From: a virus | DNA: 20,335 nt | IMG/VR virus record: IMGVR_UViG_3300031999_000243 | Coordinates: 1-20,335 of that record | Reading direction: 5' to 3' (one strand) | Shown here: positions 3,532-19,504 of the stretch, piece after piece | How positions within the stretch are numbered: position 1 is the stretch's first letter | Layout of the letters: each line of letters begins with the position of its first letter | The notes under the pieces: model-generated | Told to the model about the DNA's origin: nothing | Seen by the model: only the letters and a program-made list of their open reading frames with translations | Databases searched by the model: none | Program-made: the position numbers and the translations under genes

Positions 3532-5431
3532 GGCGTCGAACAATGGTCATATCAAGGATGTGAATGCCCAATTGCAGGCATGGATCAAAGAAGGCGTTGC
3601 ACCTGACAAGCAAAAGGTGAAGGCTGAAAGCTGGTTGAAGGCCGCGCAACCGTTCATCGTGTATTGGGCCGAGGATATCGGGAAGATCGAAACGCTGAGC
3701 GAGAAAACAAAGGCGTTGAACGAGTTCTTCAAGAGCGGTGTTTCTGGTTTGGATGCGGATGACCGCGCAGGATATCGTGAGGTTTTATGCAATGCGCTGG
3801 GCATCAAGACAACCGAATGGCGCGAGCGGACGGCTCCGATACGCGAGAAGGAACGGGACCAGAAGAGCAGGGATCGCAAGGCGAAGGGCGATGATGAAAA
3901 CTCGACCATATCCACGGGGGGATGGCTATTCGATCACCTGCTGGGGCTGGAATATGACCCCGAAGAGGATAAAACATACTTCGCGGTGCGATATCCAGAC
4001 GGTCATGTGGAAGACCACGTTCAACGGCTTGAGATCGAGAAGAGAATTTTCATCCCGCAACCGCCAAACAACATCATCCGCAAAAGGATCCTGCTGCTGC
4101 CTTCGGAAATGACCGAGTTGAAGACGGAAGAGGAATTGTTATTTGCGACGCGCGCACATAATTACAAGTATTTCGATTGCGGAAGCGATGAAACGCTGGA
4201 GCATTTGTTGATGATCTATCCGCTCTACAGCTACATGGCCAGCCAGTTCCGAACGGTTCCTTATCTGCGGGCGTTGGGAGATTATGGGACGGGAAAGACG
4301 CGGATGCTGGAGACGATCGGGCCGTTGTGCTACCAGTCGATCATGACGAATGCAGGTTCATCGGCGAGCGCACTATTCAGAATTCTGGACCTATACCAAA
4401 ACAGCACGCTTGTTCTGGATGAGGCGGATTTCAAGGACAGCTCCGAGGCTTCGATGATCGGTAAGATCTTGAACGGCGGCAACCGCAAGGGGACGGCGAT
4501 CTTGAAGAGCGAGAAGAATGCGATGGGGAACTTCGATGCCGAAGGTTATACGGTGTTCGGGCCGAAGATCATCGGGATGCGCAAGGATTTCGACGATGCG
4601 GCGACCACAAGCCGATGTATCACGAAAGAAATGTTGCCTATCCAACCACATCCGCGGATCTCGCCCGAGCTGCCACCCTTGCAGATCTATGAGAACGCCT
4701 GTTTGAAGATCCGCAATGCGCTGTTTACGTACATGATGCACAACCTGCAGAGGGATTGCGACGTGAGCTTCGAGGGGATGAGCGGTGCAATCGATGAGCG
4801 GACAAAGCAGATCACGGTATCCCTGCTGACCGTGATGAAGAGCGAGCGCGGCAAAGAAATGGTGATGGAATATATGCGGCTCGTGACCGAGGAACGCAAG
4901 GGCGACCGCTATGAAATGTTCACGGCGCGCGTTTTGGAAGGCATCATTTTGGCGTGGGCGTGGGGGCCTGTGTCTGAGCGGGAAGAGGATCAGAGACGGG
5001 TGTATTTGAAGGATGTGTCGCTGGCCACCAACCTGGTTGTGGATGAACAGAATCGGCGGATGGGTGAGGCGGATGAGGAAGATGACAAGGACGGCAAGAA
5101 CAGCAGCCGAAAGATGAAGAGCCGCAAGCTGAGCACCATCTTCAAGAACTATCTGAACATCAAAACCCTGCGAGCGACGGATGGGATGCCTGAATATAAG
5201 GGGACGAAGTTCATCAACCTGGCGGACCCTGACATGCTAATGCGGGTGAAAGGGCTGTGCGAGCGGTGGGGGGTGGAGTGGCGTGAATCGGGAAGTTTGG
5301 CAGATAGCGTGGCGGTTGTTGAGGAATTTGAGTGGATGCGGAAGCCTGTGGTGAAGATGATCGAGTTTGGGAAGTCATCTGAAGCGACAAATGAGCTGCG
5401 GAAGGCTTGGAATGGAGAAGGAAATGGATAA
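3524..5431 (+). CDS. ATPase / putative replicative helicase
   Basis: This protein of about 635 residues carries a Walker A loop GDYGTGKT (252-259), a Walker B LVLDEAD (296-302) and a downstream TTSR (361-364) that could hold an arginine finger. This is the arrangement of phage and plasmid helicases paired with primases. The first 120 residues are charged and may be a linker or partner-binding region. The C-terminal part has no recognised domain. I chose ATG 3524 because GAGGTGG (3514-3520) precedes it and it overlaps the primase stop by 8 bases, implying coupling. An in-frame ATG at 3503 would add seven residues but has a poor ribosome site. The likely job is unwinding DNA with the upstream primase. 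The exact family is not certain. Confidence 0.7.
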   Translation: MPRASNNGHIKDVNAQLQAWIKEGVAPDKQKVKAESWLKAAQPFIVYWAEDIGKIETLSEKTKALNEFFKSGVSGLDADDRAGYREVLCNALGIKTTEWRERTAPIREKERDQKSRDRKAKGDDENSTISTGGWLFDHLLGLEYDPEEDKTYFAVRYPDGHVEDHVQRLEIEKRIFIPQPPNNIIRKRILLLPSEMTELKTEEELLFATRAHNYKYFDCGSDETLEHLLMIYPLYSYMASQFRTVPYLRALGDYGTGKTRMLETIGPLCYQSIMTNAGSSASALFRILDLYQNSTLVLDEADFKDSSEASMIGKILNGGNRKGTAILKSEKNAMGNFDAEGYTVFGPKIIGMRKDFDDAATTSRCITKEMLPIQPHPRISPELPPLQIYENACLKIRNALFTYMMHNLQRDCDVSFEGMSGAIDERTKQITVSLLTVMKSERGKEMVMEYMRLVTEERKGDRYEMFTARVLEGIILAWAWGPVSEREEDQRRVYLKDVSLATNLVVDEQNRRMGEADEEDDKDGKNSSRKMKSRKLSTIFKNYLNIKTLRATDGMPEYKGTKFINLADPDMLMRVKGLCERWGVEWRESGSLADSVAVVEEFEWMRKPVVKMIEFGKSSEATNELRKAWNGEGNG

Positions 5432-5436
5432 ATTTT

Positions 5437-5495
5437 CCCCCTTCGGCTTCGCCACTTCCCCCAAATGCGGGGAAAACACCCGAATTTGGGGGAAG
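5437..5495. repeat. dispersed C/G-rich hairpin repeat
   Basis: A CCCCCTTCGG head is followed by CTTCCCCCAAAT and, after a short variable loop, AATTTGGGGGAAG. The C-rich and G-rich arms pair. It lies directly after the helicase stop and starts the gene-free control region. Confidence 0.75.
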
Positions 5496-5507
5496 AATGC
5501 CCCTGCG

Positions 5508-5690
5508 GTGAGGGTGAGTGAGGATAAAATGCCAATTCTGCCATGTATGAATAATAAAAATTTTTATTTTATTGTGTCTCCAAACCCCCAAAAGATGCTC
5601 ACTCACCCTCACCGTCTTTTTTGGGATGGTTTTTGGATGAAAAAAGACCATAAAAACGATGATTATACGCAAAAAGTGAGGGTGAGTGAG
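5508..5690. repeat. three 15 bp iterons GTGAGGGTGAGTGAG
   Basis: Exact copies of GTGAGGGTGAGTGAG lie at 5508-5522 (+), 5598-5612 (reverse complement) and 5676-5690 (+). The first two share one more flanking G. Each unit is built of GTGAG steps. They are unlike the C/G hairpin repeats and occur nowhere else that I saw in the window. Confidence 0.8.
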
Positions 5691-5747
5691 CGTTCAATAA
5701 TAACAGTATATATATATATTGCTTTTTTTGAGACTTTGAGACGTGCG

Positions 5748-5796
5748 GTGAACGTTGCAACGGTTACAACGTTCACTAGTGAACGTTAACGTTCAC
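5748..5796. promoter_or_regulatory. array of four GTGAACGTT half-sites
   Basis: GTGAACGTT occurs at 5748-5756 (+), 5768-5776 (-), 5779-5787 (+) and 5788-5796 (-). The first pair forms a 10 bp perfect dyad, GTGAACGTTG / CAACGTTCAC. The second and third form the 20 bp palindrome AACGTTCACTAGTGAACGTT. This is the form of an operator or initiator-binding cluster. The protein that binds is unknown. Confidence 0.7.
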
Positions 5797-5797
5797 T

Positions 5798-5810
5798 GTT
5801 GTCAGACAAC
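5798..5810. promoter_or_regulatory. palindrome GTTGTCAGACAAC
   Basis: Six-base arms flank a single central A, directly after the GTGAACGTT array. It is a possible second protein-binding site before the downstream operon. Confidence 0.45.
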
Positions 5811-5814
5811 TTGA

Positions 5815-5874
5815 CCCCTTCGGCCTTCGGCCACTTCCCCCAAATACGGTTGCGCCGATATTTAGGGGAAGAAG
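5815..5874. repeat. dispersed C/G-rich hairpin repeat
   Basis: GGCCTTCGGCC forms a small TTC-loop hairpin, followed by CTTCCCCCAAATA and ATATTTAGGGGAAG as pairing arms. Its 3' end lies about 15 bases before the next start codon. Confidence 0.75.
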
Positions 5875-6132: not shown

Positions 6133-6436
6133 GGCCCCCTTCGGCTTTGCCGCTTTCCCCCAAATGCGGGAAGAGCGCCCGAATTTGGGGGAAGAAGAGA
6201 AGCATGAGGTTTTGCAGTGGTGTGTGTATGCTGGAAGGCATTTCAGGCAGGATGGATGGTTGATGTGGTTCTGGTTCCCGAACGGGTTGACTGCGACCAT
6301 TGTGGCTGGTCCGTGTACGCGGGGAATCGAGGTGGGGGTGATGGATGGGGATTGGTTGATCGATGTGTTCGAAGATCTATGCGGCGAGGATGTGATTGGT
6401 GTGCTGCGCGAAGTGATGAAGAGGAGTTTGGCATGA
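6125..6436 (+). CDS. hypothetical protein with repeat-encoded N terminus
   Basis: I chose GTG 6125 because AGGAGG (6113-6118) lies 6 bases upstream, an ideal ribosome site, and it overlaps the previous stop (GTGGATAA). The first 25 or so residues are then encoded by a dispersed hairpin repeat (6135-6195), and the conserved-looking part begins near KHEVLQW. The body is rich in aromatic residues (WLMWFWFPNG) and ends in a helical region (IDVFEDLCGEDVIGVLREVMKRS). A shorter protein beginning inside or after the repeat is possible. The stop TGA overlaps the next ATG as ATGA, showing translational coupling. Family unknown. Confidence 0.55.
   Translation: MDKAPFGFAAFPQMREERPNLGEEEKHEVLQWCVYAGRHFRQDGWLMWFWFPNGLTATIVAGPCTRGIEVGVMDGDWLIDVFEDLCGEDVIGVLREVMKRSLA
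6135..6195. repeat. dispersed hairpin repeat inside a reading frame
   Basis: CCCCCTTCGGCTTTGCCG then TTTCCCCCAAATGCGGG and CCCGAATTTGGGGGAAG form nested pairing arms. The element lies entirely within the 6125 gene and stays open in that frame. Confidence 0.72.
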
Positions 6437-6534: not shown

Positions 6535-7417
6535 CGAGAGCCATAATTGGAAGTGGATGGTGCCTGGGATGATTTTGCCGCTGTTGATGCTGCTGGCGCG
6601 GGCGTTCTATTTGTCTCCGCATGAGTGGGTGCGGTGGGTGGGTATGATGCCAGGGTTCGCGGCGTTGATCTGCGCGATCGCGGCGGTGTCGAATTTCTTC
6701 ATCTATCTGCGGGACCAGAATACTGCGTTCATCGAGCGGAAATATGGGGTGATGAATGAGACGTATACAGCCAGGGAGCTGAGGGCGGCGCAGGGGGTGC
6801 ATCCGCAGGTGGCGCAGATGATCCTGGGTGAGCGGGACCGCTTGTGGAGGTTGAAGGCAGGGGATGTGACCGTGGGGATCATTCCGCATAGCGTGCTGTT
6901 CGATGCTCCGAGTGTGACCGATATGTTCTTCATGTATTTTCTTGAGAATTCGTCTGCGACGAAGGTGATGCCGATGCACGGGAGGCTGGTGGAGGGGAGA
7001 AAGAATGTTTTCGATCCGCACAGGCAGACGGATGAGTACACGATGTATCGGGACCTGATCGCAATGCTGGCGATGAAGCGGATCATTGTGCAGTGGAATA
7101 ATTTTTCAGCGTGGGAGTGGAACCAGCCATGGGATCCCGCTTTGGTGGCGGCGAATTGGGGATTGGAGTTGGAGACCCCCTCTGCCGCTGAAGCGGCATC
7201 TCCCCCAAATAGCGAAGAACAAGAGCGCCATTTGGGGGAGAAAGAGACGGTGACTATAAATCCGCCTGCGAGGGTTGAAGATGAAATCACGGATGAGGAT
7301 TGGAAGGCTATCAAGGATTTTGAGATTGAGCATGAGGTAAAGAATAAGATGACAAGGGAGATCTATGACAGTTTGCCGAAAGATGTACGCGGTCACGCAC
7401 TGATTGTTCAAAAATAA
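6527..7417 (+). CDS. hypothetical membrane-anchored protein
   Basis: This 296-residue protein has two hydrophobic segments near the N terminus (about 11-28 and 38-61), then a soluble region of about 230 residues that is probably cytoplasmic. TAGGAGG (6515-6521) lies 5 bases before ATG. Residues about 217-239 are encoded by a dispersed hairpin repeat and form a low-complexity, charged linker. Past it lies a helical C-terminal tail (DEDWKAIKDFEIEHEVK). It sits between the candidate origin and the actin-like gene, so a role in tethering DNA or the segregation filament is conceivable but unsupported. I do not recognise its family. Confidence 0.6.
   Translation: MYSESHNWKWMVPGMILPLLMLLARAFYLSPHEWVRWVGMMPGFAALICAIAAVSNFFIYLRDQNTAFIERKYGVMNETYTARELRAAQGVHPQVAQMILGERDRLWRLKAGDVTVGIIPHSVLFDAPSVTDMFFMYFLENSSATKVMPMHGRLVEGRKNVFDPHRQTDEYTMYRDLIAMLAMKRIIVQWNNFSAWEWNQPWDPALVAANWGLELETPSAAEAASPPNSEEQERHLGEKETVTINPPARVEDEITDEDWKAIKDFEIEHEVKNKMTREIYDSLPKDVRGHALIVQK
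7176..7243. repeat. dispersed hairpin repeat translated in frame
   Basis: CCCCCTCTGCCGCTGAAGCGGC is followed by ATCTCCCCCAAAT and, after a variable loop, ATTTGGGGGAG. It adds about 23 residues to the membrane-anchored protein without a stop or frameshift. Confidence 0.75.
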
Positions 7418-7442: not shown

Positions 7443-8423
7443 ATGTCTATCAAATTTGGTTGTGATCTGGGTCAGAGTTCGTTGAAGTTCGTGGGGGTGA
7501 ATGGGGCGCTGCAATTCGCTTCGATGGCGGCGTTGTATGGCAGTGAGAGCGCGGATTTTGGGAAGAAGCGCAAGCGCCCGATGGTGGTGGAAGGTGATTT
7601 TGGGAAGTTGTTCGTGGGACATGGGGCGCATACGTATGGGATCCCCGTGGAGAATTTGGACTTCGACCGCCTGGCTGGGACGCCTGAGATGCGGGCTGTG
7701 TTCTACGGTGCGATGACGGCGTACATGCGCAAGTATGGGACGTTCGCTTCACCGTTGACTTTGGTGGTGGGTCTGCCTTTCCAGATGATGATGGGGGAGG
7801 GTGCAAGCGTGGACAAGTTCCGCAAGTCTGTGAACGGATGGCTGGGCGGGGAGCATGAGTGGACTGCGGATGGAAAGCAATTCACGCTGAGCGTTGAGCA
7901 GACGCATTTGTATCCGCAGGCGATGGGTGCGCCGATCGATTATTCGATCACGATGGATGGGAAGGCTTACAGCGATGAGCGGACGAAGGCGATCCGAAAT
8001 GAGTGTGGGACGATCTCGATCGGGAGCAACACAGTCGAATGCCTGGTGACGAAGCGCGATGAGGATACGAAGAAATTCAACGGCGGAAAGGCGATCGGGG
8101 TGAGGCAGTTGTGGCGGCGCGTGGACCCGAACGGGTATTGGACGTTCGGTGAGTTCGATGAGATGCTGCGGGATGGTACGCTGCCCGATGACCTGGATGT
8201 GACTCCGCATTTGGAGAGCTGGTCTTCGGAGATCCTGGGCTTCGTGAATTCGCTTTGGGGCCAGAGTTACCACCGTTTTTATAAGGTGTTCCTGGTGGGC
8301 GGCGGGGCGATATTGCTGGAGAAGCATATGCGGGCGAAGTTCAACGGGAAAAGCATCATGGCTGATGACCCCGTGATGGCGATCGCGAACGGGTTGTATA
8401 AGGCTGGGTTTGGGTTGAAGTGA
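7443..8423 (+). CDS. parM: ParM/StbA-like actin-family ATPase
   Basis: This 326-residue protein shows the actin-fold signature. The phosphate-1 loop is CDLGQSSLK (7-15, D8 and K15), the phosphate-2 loop is GTISIGSNT (189-197), the adenosine loop is FLVGGGA (283-289), and a final MAIANGLYKAG helix (312-322) matches ParM relatives. Such proteins polymerise with ATP to push DNA copies apart or to position phage DNA. The phosphate-2 loop has Ser192 where actins normally have Asp, which may change hydrolysis. A good ribosome site (AAAGGAG) lies about 10 bases before ATG. The next gene is a ParR-like candidate partner. Phage actins such as AlpC of corynephage CGP3 are precedents. Confidence 0.8.
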   Translation: MSIKFGCDLGQSSLKFVGVNGALQFASMAALYGSESADFGKKRKRPMVVEGDFGKLFVGHGAHTYGIPVENLDFDRLAGTPEMRAVFYGAMTAYMRKYGTFASPLTLVVGLPFQMMMGEGASVDKFRKSVNGWLGGEHEWTADGKQFTLSVEQTHLYPQAMGAPIDYSITMDGKAYSDERTKAIRNECGTISIGSNTVECLVTKRDEDTKKFNGGKAIGVRQLWRRVDPNGYWTFGEFDEMLRDGTLPDDLDVTPHLESWSSEILGFVNSLWGQSYHRFYKVFLVGGGAILLEKHMRAKFNGKSIMADDPVMAIANGLYKAGFGLK

Positions 8424-8483
8424 CCCCCTCTGTCCTTCGGACATCTCCCCCAAATATCCCTTCGGGAGTATTTGGGGGAGAAA
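8424..8483. repeat. dispersed hairpin repeat, CTGTCCTTCGGACA type
   Basis: The TGTCCTTCGGACA mini-hairpin is followed by TCTCCCCCAAATA and TATTTGGGGGAGAA arms around a CCCTTCGGG loop. It lies between the actin-like gene and its partner. Near-identical heads occur at 14296, 18943 and 19444. Confidence 0.8.
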
Positions 8484-8498
8484 GGAAATGGAGAATTT

Positions 8499-8771
8499 AT
8501 GGCGAGGATGAAGAAACTTGGCAAGGCTCGGCATTTACATATCGATCCTTACATTTGGAGGGGGGAGGATCCGCGCAGGGATGCGGTGTTGGAGTGGTAT
8601 GACAATCTTCCAAGCCGCCAGCGGACTGCGCTGGTTATGGAGTTGATCGCTGCGGCGTTGCTCGGTGAGCTGGGTCCGCAGGTGAAGGCGGCTGTGTCTG
8701 ATGGGAATACGGAAGAGGCGATCGATGCGCTAAAGGATGTGTTGGGTGCGTTTGGAGGGGCGGATGATTGA
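8499..8771 (+). CDS. ParR-like DNA-binding adaptor of the actin-like protein
   Basis: The 90-residue product starts at ATG 8499 with GGAG (8490-8493) five bases upstream; an upstream in-frame ATG at 8472 lies in the repeat. The pattern is a short strand (RHLHIDPYIW), then a helix (DAVLEWYDNLPSRQRTALV), then a hydrophobic helix (MELIAAALLG). This resembles the ribbon-helix-helix N domain of ParR/StbB adaptors, which bind a centromere and cap actin filaments. It directly follows the ParM-like gene, as in type II partition operons, and a tandem repeat follows it. The C-terminal part (EEAIDALKDVLGAF) could contact the filament. The family call rests on pattern and context. Confidence 0.55.
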   Translation: MARMKKLGKARHLHIDPYIWRGEDPRRDAVLEWYDNLPSRQRTALVMELIAAALLGELGPQVKAAVSDGNTEEAIDALKDVLGAFGGADD

Positions 8772-8776
8772 CCATG

Positions 8777-8820
8777 TCAATTTAACCGCTAAATTGAAAC
8801 CGTTCAATTTAACCGCTAAA
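8777..8820. repeat. two 17 bp direct repeats, candidate parC centromere
   Basis: TCAATTTAACCGCTAAA occurs at 8777-8793 and 8804-8820, a 27-base period. Within the first copy and its flank, TCAATTTA (8777-8784) and TAAATTGA (8790-8797) form a dyad. The repeats lie 6 bases after the ParR-like stop, a plausible adaptor-binding site. Confidence 0.6.
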
Positions 8821-8822
8821 AA

Positions 8823-8899
8823 CTCCCCCACTCAATGATCGGTTTGGGGCGTGCGCTGGGGACGTGTGCGGAAATGGAAATCTTCCCTTAGTGGGGGAG
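8823..8899. repeat. long-loop inverted repeat CTCCCCCACT / AGTGGGGGAG
   Basis: Ten-base perfect arms at 8823-8832 and 8890-8899 enclose about 57 bases. It resembles the C/G repeat family but with a longer, different loop. ATGATCGG appears both inside (8835) and just after (8905). Confidence 0.6.
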
Positions 8900-8920
8900 G
8901 GGACATGATCGGAGGTTGTG

Positions 8921-10480: not shown

Positions 10481-10921
10481 ATGAATAAGTTATTTTCAAG
10501 AATTGCATGGATCTGCATTGTGGTTGTTTTGGTTTCGGCTGTGTTCGTTGTGCCTGCTTTCGCACAGACGGGGAACCCCCCCATTGTGCTGCCGCCCATT
10601 ACCGCCGTGACCTTGGTGACGATCATCGCGGCTTTGCTTTCATTGGCACTTGATTACTTCCCTGGCTTGCGTGCCAAGTGGGATGGGCTGGGCGTGGCAG
10701 CGAAGAGGCAATGGTCCGCTGTGTTTGCAGTGGTGATCGTTGGAGGCGTGTTCGGTTTGACGTGTGCAAATGTGGTGACGAGCAATTTGGTTTGCACCAC
10801 CACGGGCGCATGGGATGCGATATCCAATATCATCTATGTGTTCGTGGTTGGCCAGGCTGTTCATGCTGGGACGAAACCCACAGCGGCTTATAAGGCGCGC
10901 CTGTTTGCCGCGAAGGGATAG
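10481..10921 (+). CDS. multi-pass membrane protein, possible holin
   Basis: This 146-residue protein begins with a signal-like hydrophobic segment (8-28) ending AFA-QT. Further membrane segments follow at about 40-58, 78-97 and 112-127. AAAGGAG (10467-10473) is 7 bases before ATG 10481; the open frame extends further upstream but only through the terminator and repeat. Small multi-span proteins at the head of a late operon are often holins, so that is the best guess. No endolysin is recognisable next to it, which weakens the call. A cleaved, secreted membrane protein is the alternative. Confidence 0.5.
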   Translation: MNKLFSRIAWICIVVVLVSAVFVVPAFAQTGNPPIVLPPITAVTLVTIIAALLSLALDYFPGLRAKWDGLGVAAKRQWSAVFAVVIVGGVFGLTCANVVTSNLVCTTTGAWDAISNIIYVFVVGQAVHAGTKPTAAYKARLFAAKG

Positions 10922-10930
10922 TCACAATTT

Positions 10931-10967
10931 CGATGCTTACCGATGCTTACCGATGCTTACCGATGCT
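10931..10967. repeat. 10 bp tandem repeat CGATGCTTAC, 3.7 copies
   Basis: Units start at 10931, 10941, 10951 and 10961 (the last partial). Each contains an ATG, at 10933, 10943, 10953 and 10963, in successive reading frames. Only 10953 is in frame with the HD-GYP gene. Ten is not a multiple of three, so copy-number change would alter which ATG is used. Confidence 0.9.
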
Positions 10968-11525
10968 CTGTTTCGCCTTGATGCGGTAACGGAATTCGCG
11001 CTCAATGCCATGGCTCTGCATGATGCCTGGGAAATTGGGCACAGCATCCGCTCGGCGGAACTGATCGAGGAGCTGGCGTTTGAGATGGAGCTTCGAACCG
11101 CTGACATCGTGTTGTTGAAGTATCTTGCGAAATTGCATGACATCGGGAAACTTGGCATCTCCGATGTCATCCTGAGCAGGCGGAAGTTATCGGTGTCGGA
11201 TATGGATACGATCCGCGGGCACCCCTTCAACGGGGCTGCGCTGATCAAGGATATGAATTTCGATGAGCGCATTACCCTGGGCATTTTGCAGCATCATGAA
11301 TGCTGGGACGGTTCGGGCTATCCGTCTGGATTGATCGGCACCCAGATTACCCTGTGGGCGCGGATGCTTTTGGTAGTGGATACCTATGACGCGATATGCA
11401 GCGAACGTGCAGAACATAAGGCGCGCACCGTGACAGAGACCTTGAAGATCATGGAACGGGAACAAGGTGTCAAATCTGATCCTGACATATTTCGAGTGTT
11501 CCAGAAAATGATGACGAGAACTTAA
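10953..11525 (+). CDS. stand-alone HD-GYP domain phosphodiesterase
   Basis: From ATG 10953 the product is 190 residues, essentially one HD-GYP domain. This metal-dependent family hydrolyses cyclic di-GMP and, in some members, 3'3'-cGAMP. The motifs are complete: H30 (GHSIR), H62-D63 with K66 (HDIGK), H90 (RGHP), H114-H115 (HHECWDGSGYP) and D143 (VVDTYDA). There is no receiver, sensor or membrane domain. The start lies within a tandem repeat and has only a weak AAGGGA ribosome site, so expression may be coupled to the upstream gene or variable. The open frame continues upstream to 10815 inside the membrane gene, but that part has no family match. Such an enzyme is unusual in a phage late operon. 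Confidence 0.83.
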   Translation: MLTDALFRLDAVTEFALNAMALHDAWEIGHSIRSAELIEELAFEMELRTADIVLLKYLAKLHDIGKLGISDVILSRRKLSVSDMDTIRGHPFNGAALIKDMNFDERITLGILQHHECWDGSGYPSGLIGTQITLWARMLLVVDTYDAICSERAEHKARTVTETLKIMEREQGVKSDPDIFRVFQKMMTRT

Positions 11526-11979: not shown

Positions 11980-12702
11980 ATGAGTAACGGACGTTTGGAC
12001 AAACCTGTATATCAATTGCCGCTGGATTTTAAATGGGTGGGCGTTGATGAGGCGATCCAGCAGGATGAGAAGGTATCGAATGAAGCTGCATTGGCGGCTC
12101 TTTCGGCTTTACGGATCAAAATCAAAAATGATAGCGGCGCTGAGGTTGAAATCACGCCGCGATGGATGGACCTGTATAAGCGATTGATCGAAGGCGGTTG
12201 GAAGTGGCGCGTGGCGGTCTATATCGCGTGGGCAAGCCAACCGAAGAAATATAGATGGCCAGCGACACAGGAAGAATTGGCGGTGAATTGTTTGGGATTG
12301 AATTCAGACCGCGCGATCGCTACCTGGCGCAAGAAGAATGCGACCATCGATGAGACGATTTCCATGCTGCAGGGGTCGATCATCTTCGACGCTTTGCCCG
12401 ATGCGTTGAATGCGATGGTGGAAGTTGCAACCGAGGCGGATTACAAAGGCCATGCGGACCGCAAGCTGATGTTCGAGATGGGCGGAATCTATACGCCGTC
12501 CAGCAAGATCACAGCGGAGATCGCAAAGAAGTTGAGCAAGTCCAGTTTGGGTGAGAGCGATCTGAGTGATCAGGAGCTGAGAGATATTTCGGCTTATGCG
12601 AGTCATGAGTTGGAAAATCGTCAAGCCCAGCCCCCTTCGGCTTCGCCGCATTCCCCCAATTCGGAGAGTGCATCCGAATTAGGGGAAGAGGATACTGATT
12701 GA
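11980..12702 (+). CDS. probable terminase small subunit
   Basis: This 240-residue protein ends one base into the large terminase start codon (TGATG). The central region has a helix-turn-helix-like stretch (YRWPATQEELAVNCLGLNSDRAIATWRKKN, about 90-120), of the sort used by small terminase subunits to recognise packaging sites. A helical region follows. AAAGGAA lies shortly before ATG. The last 23 residues (PPSASPHSPN onward) are encoded by a dispersed repeat and are probably disordered. The call rests on position and fold pattern; another DNA-binding late protein is possible. Confidence 0.6.
   Translation: MSNGRLDKPVYQLPLDFKWVGVDEAIQQDEKVSNEAALAALSALRIKIKNDSGAEVEITPRWMDLYKRLIEGGWKWRVAVYIAWASQPKKYRWPATQEELAVNCLGLNSDRAIATWRKKNATIDETISMLQGSIIFDALPDALNAMVEVATEADYKGHADRKLMFEMGGIYTPSSKITAEIAKKLSKSSLGESDLSDQELRDISAYASHELENRQAQPPSASPHSPNSESASELGEEDTD
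12631..12689. repeat. dispersed hairpin repeat at the end of a reading frame
   Basis: CCCCCTTCGGCTTCGCCG, then ATTCCCCCAATTCGGA and TCCGAATTAGGGGAAG form pairing arms. It is translated as the C terminus of the small terminase candidate and its GGGGAAGAGG end lies just before the large terminase start. Confidence 0.75.
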
Positions 12703-14295: not shown

Positions 14296-14353
14296 CCCCC
14301 TCTGTCCTTCGGACATCTCCCCCAAATACCGCTTCGCGGATATTTAGGGGAGA
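14296..14353. repeat. dispersed hairpin repeat, CTGTCCTTCGGACA type
   Basis: Same head as the 8424 copy, followed by TCTCCCCCAAATA and TATTTAGGGGAGAA around a CGCTTCGCG loop. It starts at the large terminase stop. Confidence 0.8.
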
Positions 14354-14374: not shown

Positions 14375-16591
14375 ATGGCTAAAAATAAATTTACTGAGTT
14401 GTTGGAAGGACGGATGGAATTGGTGGAGGCGGTTGAAGGTGCGCCAAGGTCGATCCGTGTGAATGGTGCGATGACTGCGGAGGTTGTCAATGGCAATCGC
14501 CGCGTTTATCCCAGTTCAGTGCTTGAAGCGGCGGTGGCGGAATTACGCGACCATCTGAACGAGAGCGCTGGGCAGGGCCGTGCGGTTCGTATCCTTGGTG
14601 AGGCGGAACATCCGTCTGACAAGGGCGGGCGCGCGAACCTTTTGGAGACGGTCACAAAATGGAACGAGGTCACTTTCGACGGGTCGAAGGTGGATATCGT
14701 TGGCAATGTGTTACCAACCACCAAGGGACGCGACATCCTGACCCTGTTGGAAAATGGCGTTATGCCTGGCGTGAGTATGCGCGGGTACGGTGAAGGCCAG
14801 ACCGAAGGAAAAGGCGAAGAGAAGATCTTCCGTGTGAGCGATCTGCATATCACGGGATTTGACCTGGTGCTGGAGCCTTCGTTTGAAAATCAAGTGTATT
14901 TGCTTGAATCACAAAATCAAGATGATGATGCGGAAGCATCGGGAGAAAATGAAATGTCTGATGAACTTTTAGAGAAACTGCAATTGCAGGAACAGGAAAA
15001 GGCCGAACTCAAGAAACAACTTGAAGTAGCCCAGAAGTTGGCCGCTGAAGGCGAACAAGCCAAAGCGGAATTGGAAGCAGGCAAACGGAAGAGCGAAGTT
15101 GAAATCGCCATTACCGAGGCCACCAAGGACCTGCCTTTCGGCAAGGAACTCAATGAGATGTTCGTTGAGAGCATCAAGGATGCGCACCTCGCTGATGCAA
15201 CCGCTGTGAAGCAGTTCGCTGAAAGCAAGCGCACTGAATACGGCAAGCTGGCCGCAAAAGTCGTCTTGAAGGGCATGGGTTTTGACGGCAAGATCACAGG
15301 CGTTCAGTCTGTGCTGGAAGCTGAGACAGGCACGCCCGATTACGCGCGCGCTTCGTTCGAGCTGACCGAGAGTATGCGCAAGAGTGAGATGCGCCCGATG
15401 AGAGACCTGCGCAAAGGCGAGAGCCGCGCCGAGATCTTCACCCTGCAGGTGCTCGAACGCTTTGACAACCTGTACAAACGCCAGTTGATGAACGAAGCGC
15501 AGCAGTTCAACGAAGAAGCGACCAGCGATCTCAATATCCCGTATTCGGTCAGCCGCGCGATCATCGCCGAGGCGTTCCCGAATCTGGTGGCCGCGAATGT
15601 CTTCGATGTGGGCTTGATGAACCAAAGCCCAGAACGCATTTATTTCGAGGCGTTCACAGGTGAGACGGGTTATACCGTTTCGATTACCGATGAAGTGGAA
15701 ACCGCAGGCGCGGAAGGCACATGGTACGCGCTCGCTCATCCGCGCATTGTGCCGGGCACGGTTGTTGTCACCAGCAATCCCGCTGGCACAACTTACGCGG
15801 AAGGCACCGATTACGTGATCGATTATGAACTCGGAAAGATCAAGGCAATCGCTGCTGGCGCAATTAATGCCGACGATGTGTTGGTGGATTACGACTACAA
15901 CGCCATCCGCGACGGCGAAGACGCTGAAATTCAGCGCGCAAAAGTCAGCTTGAGCTATCAGACCATCGAAGCCGCGGCTGACCGCCTGGCTGATTACATC
16001 ACCCACGAAGCAATTGTGTTCTCACGCAGTCAGCTTGGCTGGGATGCGACCGCGCGCACCATGGCAAACCTTGTGCGCCAGACCCGCTTGAACATCGAGA
16101 AGGGTTTGATCGAAAAGGCGCTTGCCTCCGCTTTGAGCGTGGCATCCAACAGCGGCGGCGAATGGACGGCTTCGACCGATCCATGGTCATTGCTGGTGGA
16201 ATACCTTGGTTATGCCAAGGTGAAAGTTGCCAACCGATTCTATGAACCGACTGGCATCCTGTGCAGTCCCACCAATGCCGATTACCTGAGCAATTGGGAC
16301 GGCTTCACGAACAACGGTTTCCCGAATGCCGTCTTGACCGCTGCTGGATATGCGGGCGCTGTGAAAGGTCTGCCCGTGTTCGCATCCACTTCCATGCGCG
16401 ATGGCTGGGTCTTGGTATTCAACCGTGAGATCGTGATGCACCGCATCTTCCAGCCGATGACCATCAAGGGACCGTTCCAGACCTTCGGCTCGAACCGCAA
16501 GTTGGTTGCGGCTGAACAGTATTACACCGAAGAATACAACGCTTCGCTTTCCCCGATTGCGGGCAAGGCGTCCTTTGTGAAGATTTCGTAG
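14375..16591 (+). CDS. fused prohead protease - scaffold - major capsid protein
   Basis: This 738-residue protein combines three phage head functions. Residues 1-180 resemble a serine prohead protease of the S80/gp21 type, with EAEHPS (H79 candidate) and GVSMRG (S134 candidate nucleophile). Residues about 195-250 are a glutamate- and lysine-rich coiled coil typical of a scaffold. Residues about 320-738 read as an HK97-fold major capsid protein, with a long N-terminal arm, a central helical part (IEAAADRLADYITHEA) and an inserted strand-rich domain (about 455-508). The C-terminal region includes ILCSPTNADYL and LPVFASTSM. Cleavage by its own protease would be needed to release the shell protein. 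AAGGAG lies 6 bases before ATG. An internal start is noted separately. The fusion is rarer than separate genes. Confidence 0.83.
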   Translation: MAKNKFTELLEGRMELVEAVEGAPRSIRVNGAMTAEVVNGNRRVYPSSVLEAAVAELRDHLNESAGQGRAVRILGEAEHPSDKGGRANLLETVTKWNEVTFDGSKVDIVGNVLPTTKGRDILTLLENGVMPGVSMRGYGEGQTEGKGEEKIFRVSDLHITGFDLVLEPSFENQVYLLESQNQDDDAEASGENEMSDELLEKLQLQEQEKAELKKQLEVAQKLAAEGEQAKAELEAGKRKSEVEIAITEATKDLPFGKELNEMFVESIKDAHLADATAVKQFAESKRTEYGKLAAKVVLKGMGFDGKITGVQSVLEAETGTPDYARASFELTESMRKSEMRPMRDLRKGESRAEIFTLQVLERFDNLYKRQLMNEAQQFNEEATSDLNIPYSVSRAIIAEAFPNLVAANVFDVGLMNQSPERIYFEAFTGETGYTVSITDEVETAGAEGTWYALAHPRIVPGTVVVTSNPAGTTYAEGTDYVIDYELGKIKAIAAGAINADDVLVDYDYNAIRDGEDAEIQRAKVSLSYQTIEAAADRLADYITHEAIVFSRSQLGWDATARTMANLVRQTRLNIEKGLIEKALASALSVASNSGGEWTASTDPWSLLVEYLGYAKVKVANRFYEPTGILCSPTNADYLSNWDGFTNNGFPNAVLTAAGYAGAVKGLPVFASTSMRDGWVLVFNREIVMHRIFQPMTIKGPFQTFGSNRKLVAAEQYYTEEYNASLSPIAGKASFVKIS
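14941..14956 (+). promoter_or_regulatory. internal ribosome site and start codon in the capsid fusion
   Basis: GGGAG (14941-14945) lies 8 bases before an in-frame ATG (14954-14956) at residue 194, exactly at the protease-scaffold junction. Use of this start would give a 545-residue scaffold-capsid product without protease. An out-of-frame ATG at 14949 lies between. Confidence 0.55.
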
Positions 16592-16592
16592 G

Positions 16593-16646
16593 CCCCCATC
16601 CCCCTTCGGGGACTTCCCCCAAATCAAAAACCGATTTGGGGGAAGA
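16593..16646. repeat. dispersed hairpin repeat
   Basis: CCCCTTCGGGG is followed by ACTTCCCCCAAATC and GATTTGGGGGAAG. It begins right after the capsid fusion stop. A further CCTGC/GCAGG hairpin (16674-16690) lies between it and the next gene. Confidence 0.78.
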
Positions 16647-19443: not shown

Positions 19444-19504
19444 CCCCCTCTGTCCTTCGGACATCTCCCCCAAATGCGAAGAGCAAGAGCGCATTTAGGG
19501 GAGA
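19444..19504. repeat. dispersed hairpin repeat, CTGTCCTTCGGACA type
   Basis: CCCCCTCTGTCCTTCGGACA head, then TCTCCCCCAAATGCG and CGCATTTAGGGGAGAG. It lies between the gp10-like gene and the portal gene. Confidence 0.8.

Follow-up and report, generated by a model that had tools for sequence, protein, structure and literature searches.

The stretch of DNA analysed here (the window) is the 20,335-base virus record IMGVR_UViG_3300031999_000243, a fragment. It carries a parM-like gene for an actin-fold ATPase of 326 amino acids (7443..8423, plus strand), which starts with ATG behind the ribosome-binding site AAAAAGGAG. On the same strand follows a parR-like gene (8499..8771, ATG after GGAG) for a 90-amino-acid putative ribbon-helix-helix (RHH) adaptor, whose C-terminal tail is helical and acidic-ended. 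Behind it lie two exact copies of a 17-bp centromere-like repeat, TCAATTTAACCGCTAAA, at 8777..8793 and 8804..8820 (both plus strand). Taken together, these features very probably make up a ParMRC-like cassette for segregating the DNA of a tailed virus of the Anaerolineae (Chloroflexota). Plasmids, and also a few phages, are known to carry such cassettes.

The product of the first gene matches Pfam ALP_N (E-value 9.2e-10) and PHROG 691, 'partition protein' (1.1e-23), the latter over residues 4–322. Its predicted model (predicted local distance difference test, pLDDT, 85; predicted template modelling score, pTM, 0.84) is closest in fold to pSK41 ParM, the archaeal Ta0583, pCBH ParM, Alp12 and Alp7A, then to R1 ParM, with MreB lower. 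A profile comparison of the window's ParM family with pCBH ParM gave 1.1e-9. Judged by sequence and model, this is an actin-fold ParM-like protein of the ParM/Alp group, as the motor of a type II system should be. One residue departs from the characterised ParMs, which have an Asp at the phosphate-2 position (in pSK41 ParM within the stretch LDFGSGTT). The window's family has no such Asp: Ser192 is invariant across 25 aligned homologs, and Asn is found in L082, the nearest relative of the window by ParM (56% identity). A Cupriavidus protein annotated as ParM/StbA has Glu at this position. The residue belongs to the motor and is no part of the formal definition of the system.

For the 90-amino-acid protein, searches of Pfam and NCBIfam returned no family. 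Applied to all members of the ParR family, Pfam gave nothing convincing, with a single member matching Plasmid_stab_B at 0.059, and a profile search of PDB with ParR produced only weak matches to unrelated proteins. The single-chain model (pLDDT 74) contains an extended segment at residues 11–17, helices at 25–35 and 39–54, a linker and a further helix. At this moderate model confidence, the layout would be that of an RHH protein with a C-terminal tail. As a discriminating test, the family profile was scored on the proteins of two plasmids with a known ParR, R100 and pSK41. R100 ParR scored 19.6 against at most 16.4 for the 26 other R100 proteins and lay above 100 shuffles; pSK41 ParR scored 18.5 against at most 16.8 for the 24 other pSK41 proteins and lay above 200 shuffles. 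Both known ParRs align to the profile in the same register, over the same helix-turn-helix stretch. This ranking is support, not proof, for the protein as a ParR; for an RHH fold and for binding to DNA the support is indirect only.

Homologous loci, about 33 in number, were found in viruses and in metagenome-assembled genomes (MAGs) of Chloroflexota. The window ParM alone retrieved no related loci. An alignment query was required, and it recovered 21 viral loci plus 7 from genomes, every one of the latter in a Chloroflexota MAG and nearly all in Anaerolineae. Scanning DNA with nothing but the repeat pair added two contigs, both carrying parMR. A ParR-family open reading frame (ORF) stands behind parM in 30 of the 31 loci tested, so that the adaptor gene of a type II system is present as well. 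Gene pair and repeats are conserved jointly, although the proteins are merely ~37–56% identical. A primase, a helicase and two small genes behind the operon are neighbours widely common to the relatives. Genes 03 and 05 of the virus Rctr41k (KX853513) are direct homologs (ParM 40%, ParR 44% identical), and in Rctr41k, too, parR is followed by two copies of a repeat, TTAACCGCTA, with a spacing of 27 bp. It differs from the window in an additional gene between parM and parR, and both proteins were deposited as hypothetical; Rctr41k rows were left out of the alignments used for structure prediction.

As a separate observation, an integron integrase (TIGR02249, 378–442 bits, cut-off 265) is encoded by six relatives, namely L014 (11977–12951), Rctr41k (4680–5678), G005, G012, G021 and G022, in several of them near parMR. 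No attC-like sites were detected near these genes in the stretches examined.

The first repeat begins five bases past the parR stop codon, and the second lies 27 bp from the first. Each is an imperfect palindrome, and an 18-nt inverted match connects the two. With up to 3 mismatches, TCAATTTAACCGCTAAA has 3 matches in the window where 0.07 are expected; 0 of 100 shuffles reach 3. The motif TTAACCGYYAA (at most 1 mismatch, operon strand) occurs 39 times within 400 bp of the operons, whereas 248 kb of flanks contain none. Information content is 2 bits per base at most TTAACCG..A positions and ~0–0.1 bit both 6–8 bases ahead of the TTAACCG core and 16–18 bases after the core start. The full repeat is a palindrome-like 17–19-mer centred on the second C, with AATTCTTAACCGCCAAGAATT as its fullest form. 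Among 18 counted pairs the spacing is 27 bp in 14, 28 bp in 3 and 18 bp in 1. When 2.9 million viral contigs were scanned for the exact 27-bp pair, where by our own estimate chance would give one or two matches, ten were obtained, all ten with ParM and ParR adjoining. A looser pattern with a gap of 6–36 bp also matched five contigs without detected ParM or ParR, which argues that the spacing is part of the signal. We also considered covariation between ParR type and repeat type and dropped it, because phylogeny confounds it and L047 runs counter to it.

In most genomes, including the window, L007, L014 and L042, the repeat pair is found behind parR. In L009, L035 and L082 it is found ahead of parM, and no complete pair follows parR. 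Mapped on the ParM tree, the upstream position requires at least 5 changes, and a single origin or clade is rejected (approximately unbiased test, p-AU 3e-31); the exact number of position changes is uncertain because some branches of the tree are long. For a pair that switches sides yet stays at the same operon, the best explanation is a partner within the operon. From these sequence comparisons we conclude that the repeats belong to parMR as a directly repeated site adjoining the genes, and they are the best candidate for its centromere. The usual place of parC is ahead of parM (PMC9426499), a position that is not strictly required and that the window does not share. An engineered pSK41 system with parC moved behind parR keeps its function (PMC4911067). 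The papers searched yielded no natural type II system whose site follows parR. With a downstream site, segregation would not be coupled automatically to autoregulation of the par promoter.

A conserved non-coding element (GCGTGCGCTGGG / TGCGTGCGCTSGGACAGGTG ... GTGGGGGAGGGGA; 8823..8900, plus strand, in the window) follows the repeats in about 19 relatives that have them downstream. In most genomes with upstream repeats it was not seen close to the operon. RNAalifold returned 2 pairs only and no common fold for this element. Folded singly, it reached a z-score of -5 in L014 and L042, and nothing comparable in the window or L017. A search of Rfam gave nothing at gathering score.

These results allow us to regard three points as established: that the motor has an actin fold (from prediction and comparison), that parM and parR are conserved as a pair, and that the paired repeats stay with parMR across side changes. 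They agree with the first-pass annotation, which had described an actin-fold ATPase, two 17-bp direct repeats with a dyad and a parC candidate out of its usual place, and had read them as a type II locus. What it called a short RHH-like gene is confirmed in its position behind parM and its family, while for the RHH fold the evidence is indirect. It had also proposed structural and profile comparison of both proteins, which matched the motor to ParM/Alp folds and ranked the R100 and pSK41 ParRs first but left the Foldseek search of ParR empty.

Several observations weigh against a ParMRC-like cassette. The Foldseek search of the single-chain ParR model against PDB gave no match at E < 0.001 and no RHH structure, so the RHH fold is unproven. 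There are only two sites here, and characterised parC sites often hold more. One repeat only is present in L034, L022 and L041 (ahead of parM), and none was recognised in L037, L039, L040 and L029. Finally, nucleotide hydrolysis may differ from that of characterised ParMs because their phosphate-2 Asp is replaced by Ser or Asn.

The repeats might instead have nothing to do with ParR and serve as an operator or promoter element for the genes downstream of parR, or as an origin site. The downstream arrangement, which places them ahead of the conserved non-coding element and the next genes, would suit such a role, but in L009, L035 and L082 the pair stands on the other side of the same operon, and every match of the 27-bp pair in the contig collection lies at parMR; we consider this explanation improbable. 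That chance repeats and an unrelated small ORF merely stand beside an actin-like gene deserves almost no credence. Short repeats in two copies often arise by chance, and the ParR has no database family, but none of the shuffles reproduced the repeats and they are conserved across homologs about 40% identical; the comparative evidence already excludes this explanation.

For the ParMRC-like cassette, we infer ParR binding, filament motion and biological use by analogy with ParMRC, as follows. ParR dimers would bind the two 17–19-bp dyads downstream of parR, assembling a small partition complex in which the C-terminal tail of ParR would engage the end of a ParM filament. Nucleotide-driven polymerisation of ParM could then move or separate copies of the circular phage DNA. 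Such a device may serve plasmid-like inheritance, or the transport of excised or replicating DNA in a phage that otherwise integrates.

The first-pass annotation had concluded that the phage is maintained as a plasmid. This is not established: the window contains neither a tyrosine nor a serine recombinase, whereas a tyrosine recombinase was present in all 16 longer relatives tested and a serine recombinase (frame of 519–687 amino acids) in 13 of them, which makes chromosomal integration plausible. It is just as possible that the phage integrates and that its excised DNA is what is transported. In the plasmid case, the phage would persist as a low-copy circular plasmid partitioned by the cassette at cell division, as proposed for the Bacillus phages IEBH and B83. 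We hold this to be a serious possibility, short of probable. Known phages with ParM and an RHH protein live as plasmids, and actin-like cassettes serve such prophages (PMC8026635, PMC6669507); several relatives assemble as circles of 41–45 kb by exact end overlaps of 123–127 bases, and XerC/D-type tyrosine recombinases occur among them. However, the serine recombinases have a size typical of integrases, the window shows no recognisable plasmid initiator, and the circular assemblies fit permuted packaged genomes as well as plasmids, so that the circles do not decide the question.

Alternatively, the element may be an integrating one whose cassette moves or stabilises the replicating DNA after excision, a reading that we judge to come close to an even chance. 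There are precedents for this: the actin-like cassette AlpACS of prophage CGP3 serves the transport of phage DNA and its replication once excised (PMC4446434, PMC5539076), and srpMRC resides on SXT/R391 integrative and conjugative elements (ICEs; PMC4489591). The large serine recombinases of the relatives favour it, as do the ParM homologs found in contigs with FtsK-family, restriction-modification or other non-phage genes (L039 and L043). Against it stand the window itself, which has no integrase, the lack of any identified attachment site or host flank, and the gene order, which is adaptor–motor in CGP3 and motor–adaptor here. In the two contigs (L039, G025:C118; L043, G029:C95) the ParM homologs adjoin FtsK/SpoIIIE-family genes, the contigs carry restriction-modification or methylase genes, and that of L043 also has a large serine recombinase. 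It is possible that both are integrative elements of Anaerolineae.

The annotation's 'iteron region' corresponds to three copies of the 16-bp repeat GGTGAGGGTGAGTGAG (5507..5690, two on the plus and one on the minus strand). They lie next to an AT-rich tract and may mark a replication origin; their signal is weaker than that of the centromere-like pair (1 of 100 shuffles). The origin-like stretch 5507–5800, behind the helicase gene, also contains AACGTTCACT palindromes.

The window has further features of its own. Between parM and parR lies a hairpin repeat resembling repetitive extragenic palindromes (REP-like; 8425..8482, plus strand), one of about 9–10 copies. Nine hairpin repeats with the arms TCCCCCAAAT...ATTTGGGGG and variable inner stems were located at 5457–5492, 5836–5868, 6156–6191, 7201–7238, 8446–8478, 12652–12685, 14318–14350, 16615–16642 and 19466–19501. 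They are mostly intergenic, just ahead of start codons, and denser in the window than in the relatives checked. A single 738-amino-acid ORF at 14375–16591 contains both a prohead protease (Peptidase_S77) and a weak match to a gp23-like major capsid protein, and is apparently a protease–capsid fusion. At 10815–11525 this phage encodes an HD_5/HD-GYP-like phosphodiesterase domain.

With more than 30 homologous loci, the cassette defines a phage lineage whose centromere-like site can be identified purely by comparison and has switched sides several times. This amounts to a natural experiment on whether the place of the site ahead of the operon, and hence autoregulation, matters for actin-based DNA segregation. 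It also brings Chloroflexota into the range of phage-borne type II systems, and the serine recombinases of the relatives bear on the choice between plasmid-like inheritance and transport of excised phage DNA. Tentatively, we propose a distinct type II lineage in Anaerolineae phages and integrative elements, with a minimal two-dyad centromere that repeatedly relocates between the operon ends. Its downstream form would adjoin a further conserved element, with segregation uncoupled from operon autoregulation, and its motor would work without the usual phosphate-2 Asp.

Among known systems, ParMRC of R1/R100 and pSK41 has the same layout of parM then parR in one operon, with an actin-like motor, a small adaptor that aligns in the helix-turn-helix register of the RHH domain, and a direct-repeat site adjoining the genes. 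Here, in contrast, the site is behind parR and consists of two dyads 27 bp apart, the phosphate-2 Asp is changed to Ser, and the adaptor is recognisable by profile comparison only. In the Bacillus plasmid prophage B83 there are Xer recombinases as well, and its ParM gene has putative iterons next to it. These iterons lie ahead of that gene (PMC6669507), and IEBH and B83 further differ from the present system in host phylum and in the serine recombinases seen in our relatives. AlpACS of the Corynebacterium prophage CGP3 likewise pairs a phage actin-like motor with a DNA adaptor, and TTAACCG formally fits the alpS consensus TTAAnnG, a match that may be coincidence. Its order is adaptor–motor with 24 alpS repeats upstream, whereas the window has motor–adaptor with two sites behind, so that neither the leading adaptor nor the many TTAAnnG sites ahead of the operon are found here. 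Like the present cassette, srpMRC of the SXT/R391 ICEs is a divergent type II cassette, there on an integrating element, but its site is ahead of srpM and its carriers are conjugative elements, not phages. Thus, phage-borne type II segregation is a known kind of system; what would be new here is a position-shifted, two-dyad centromere together with an unusual phosphate-2 residue.
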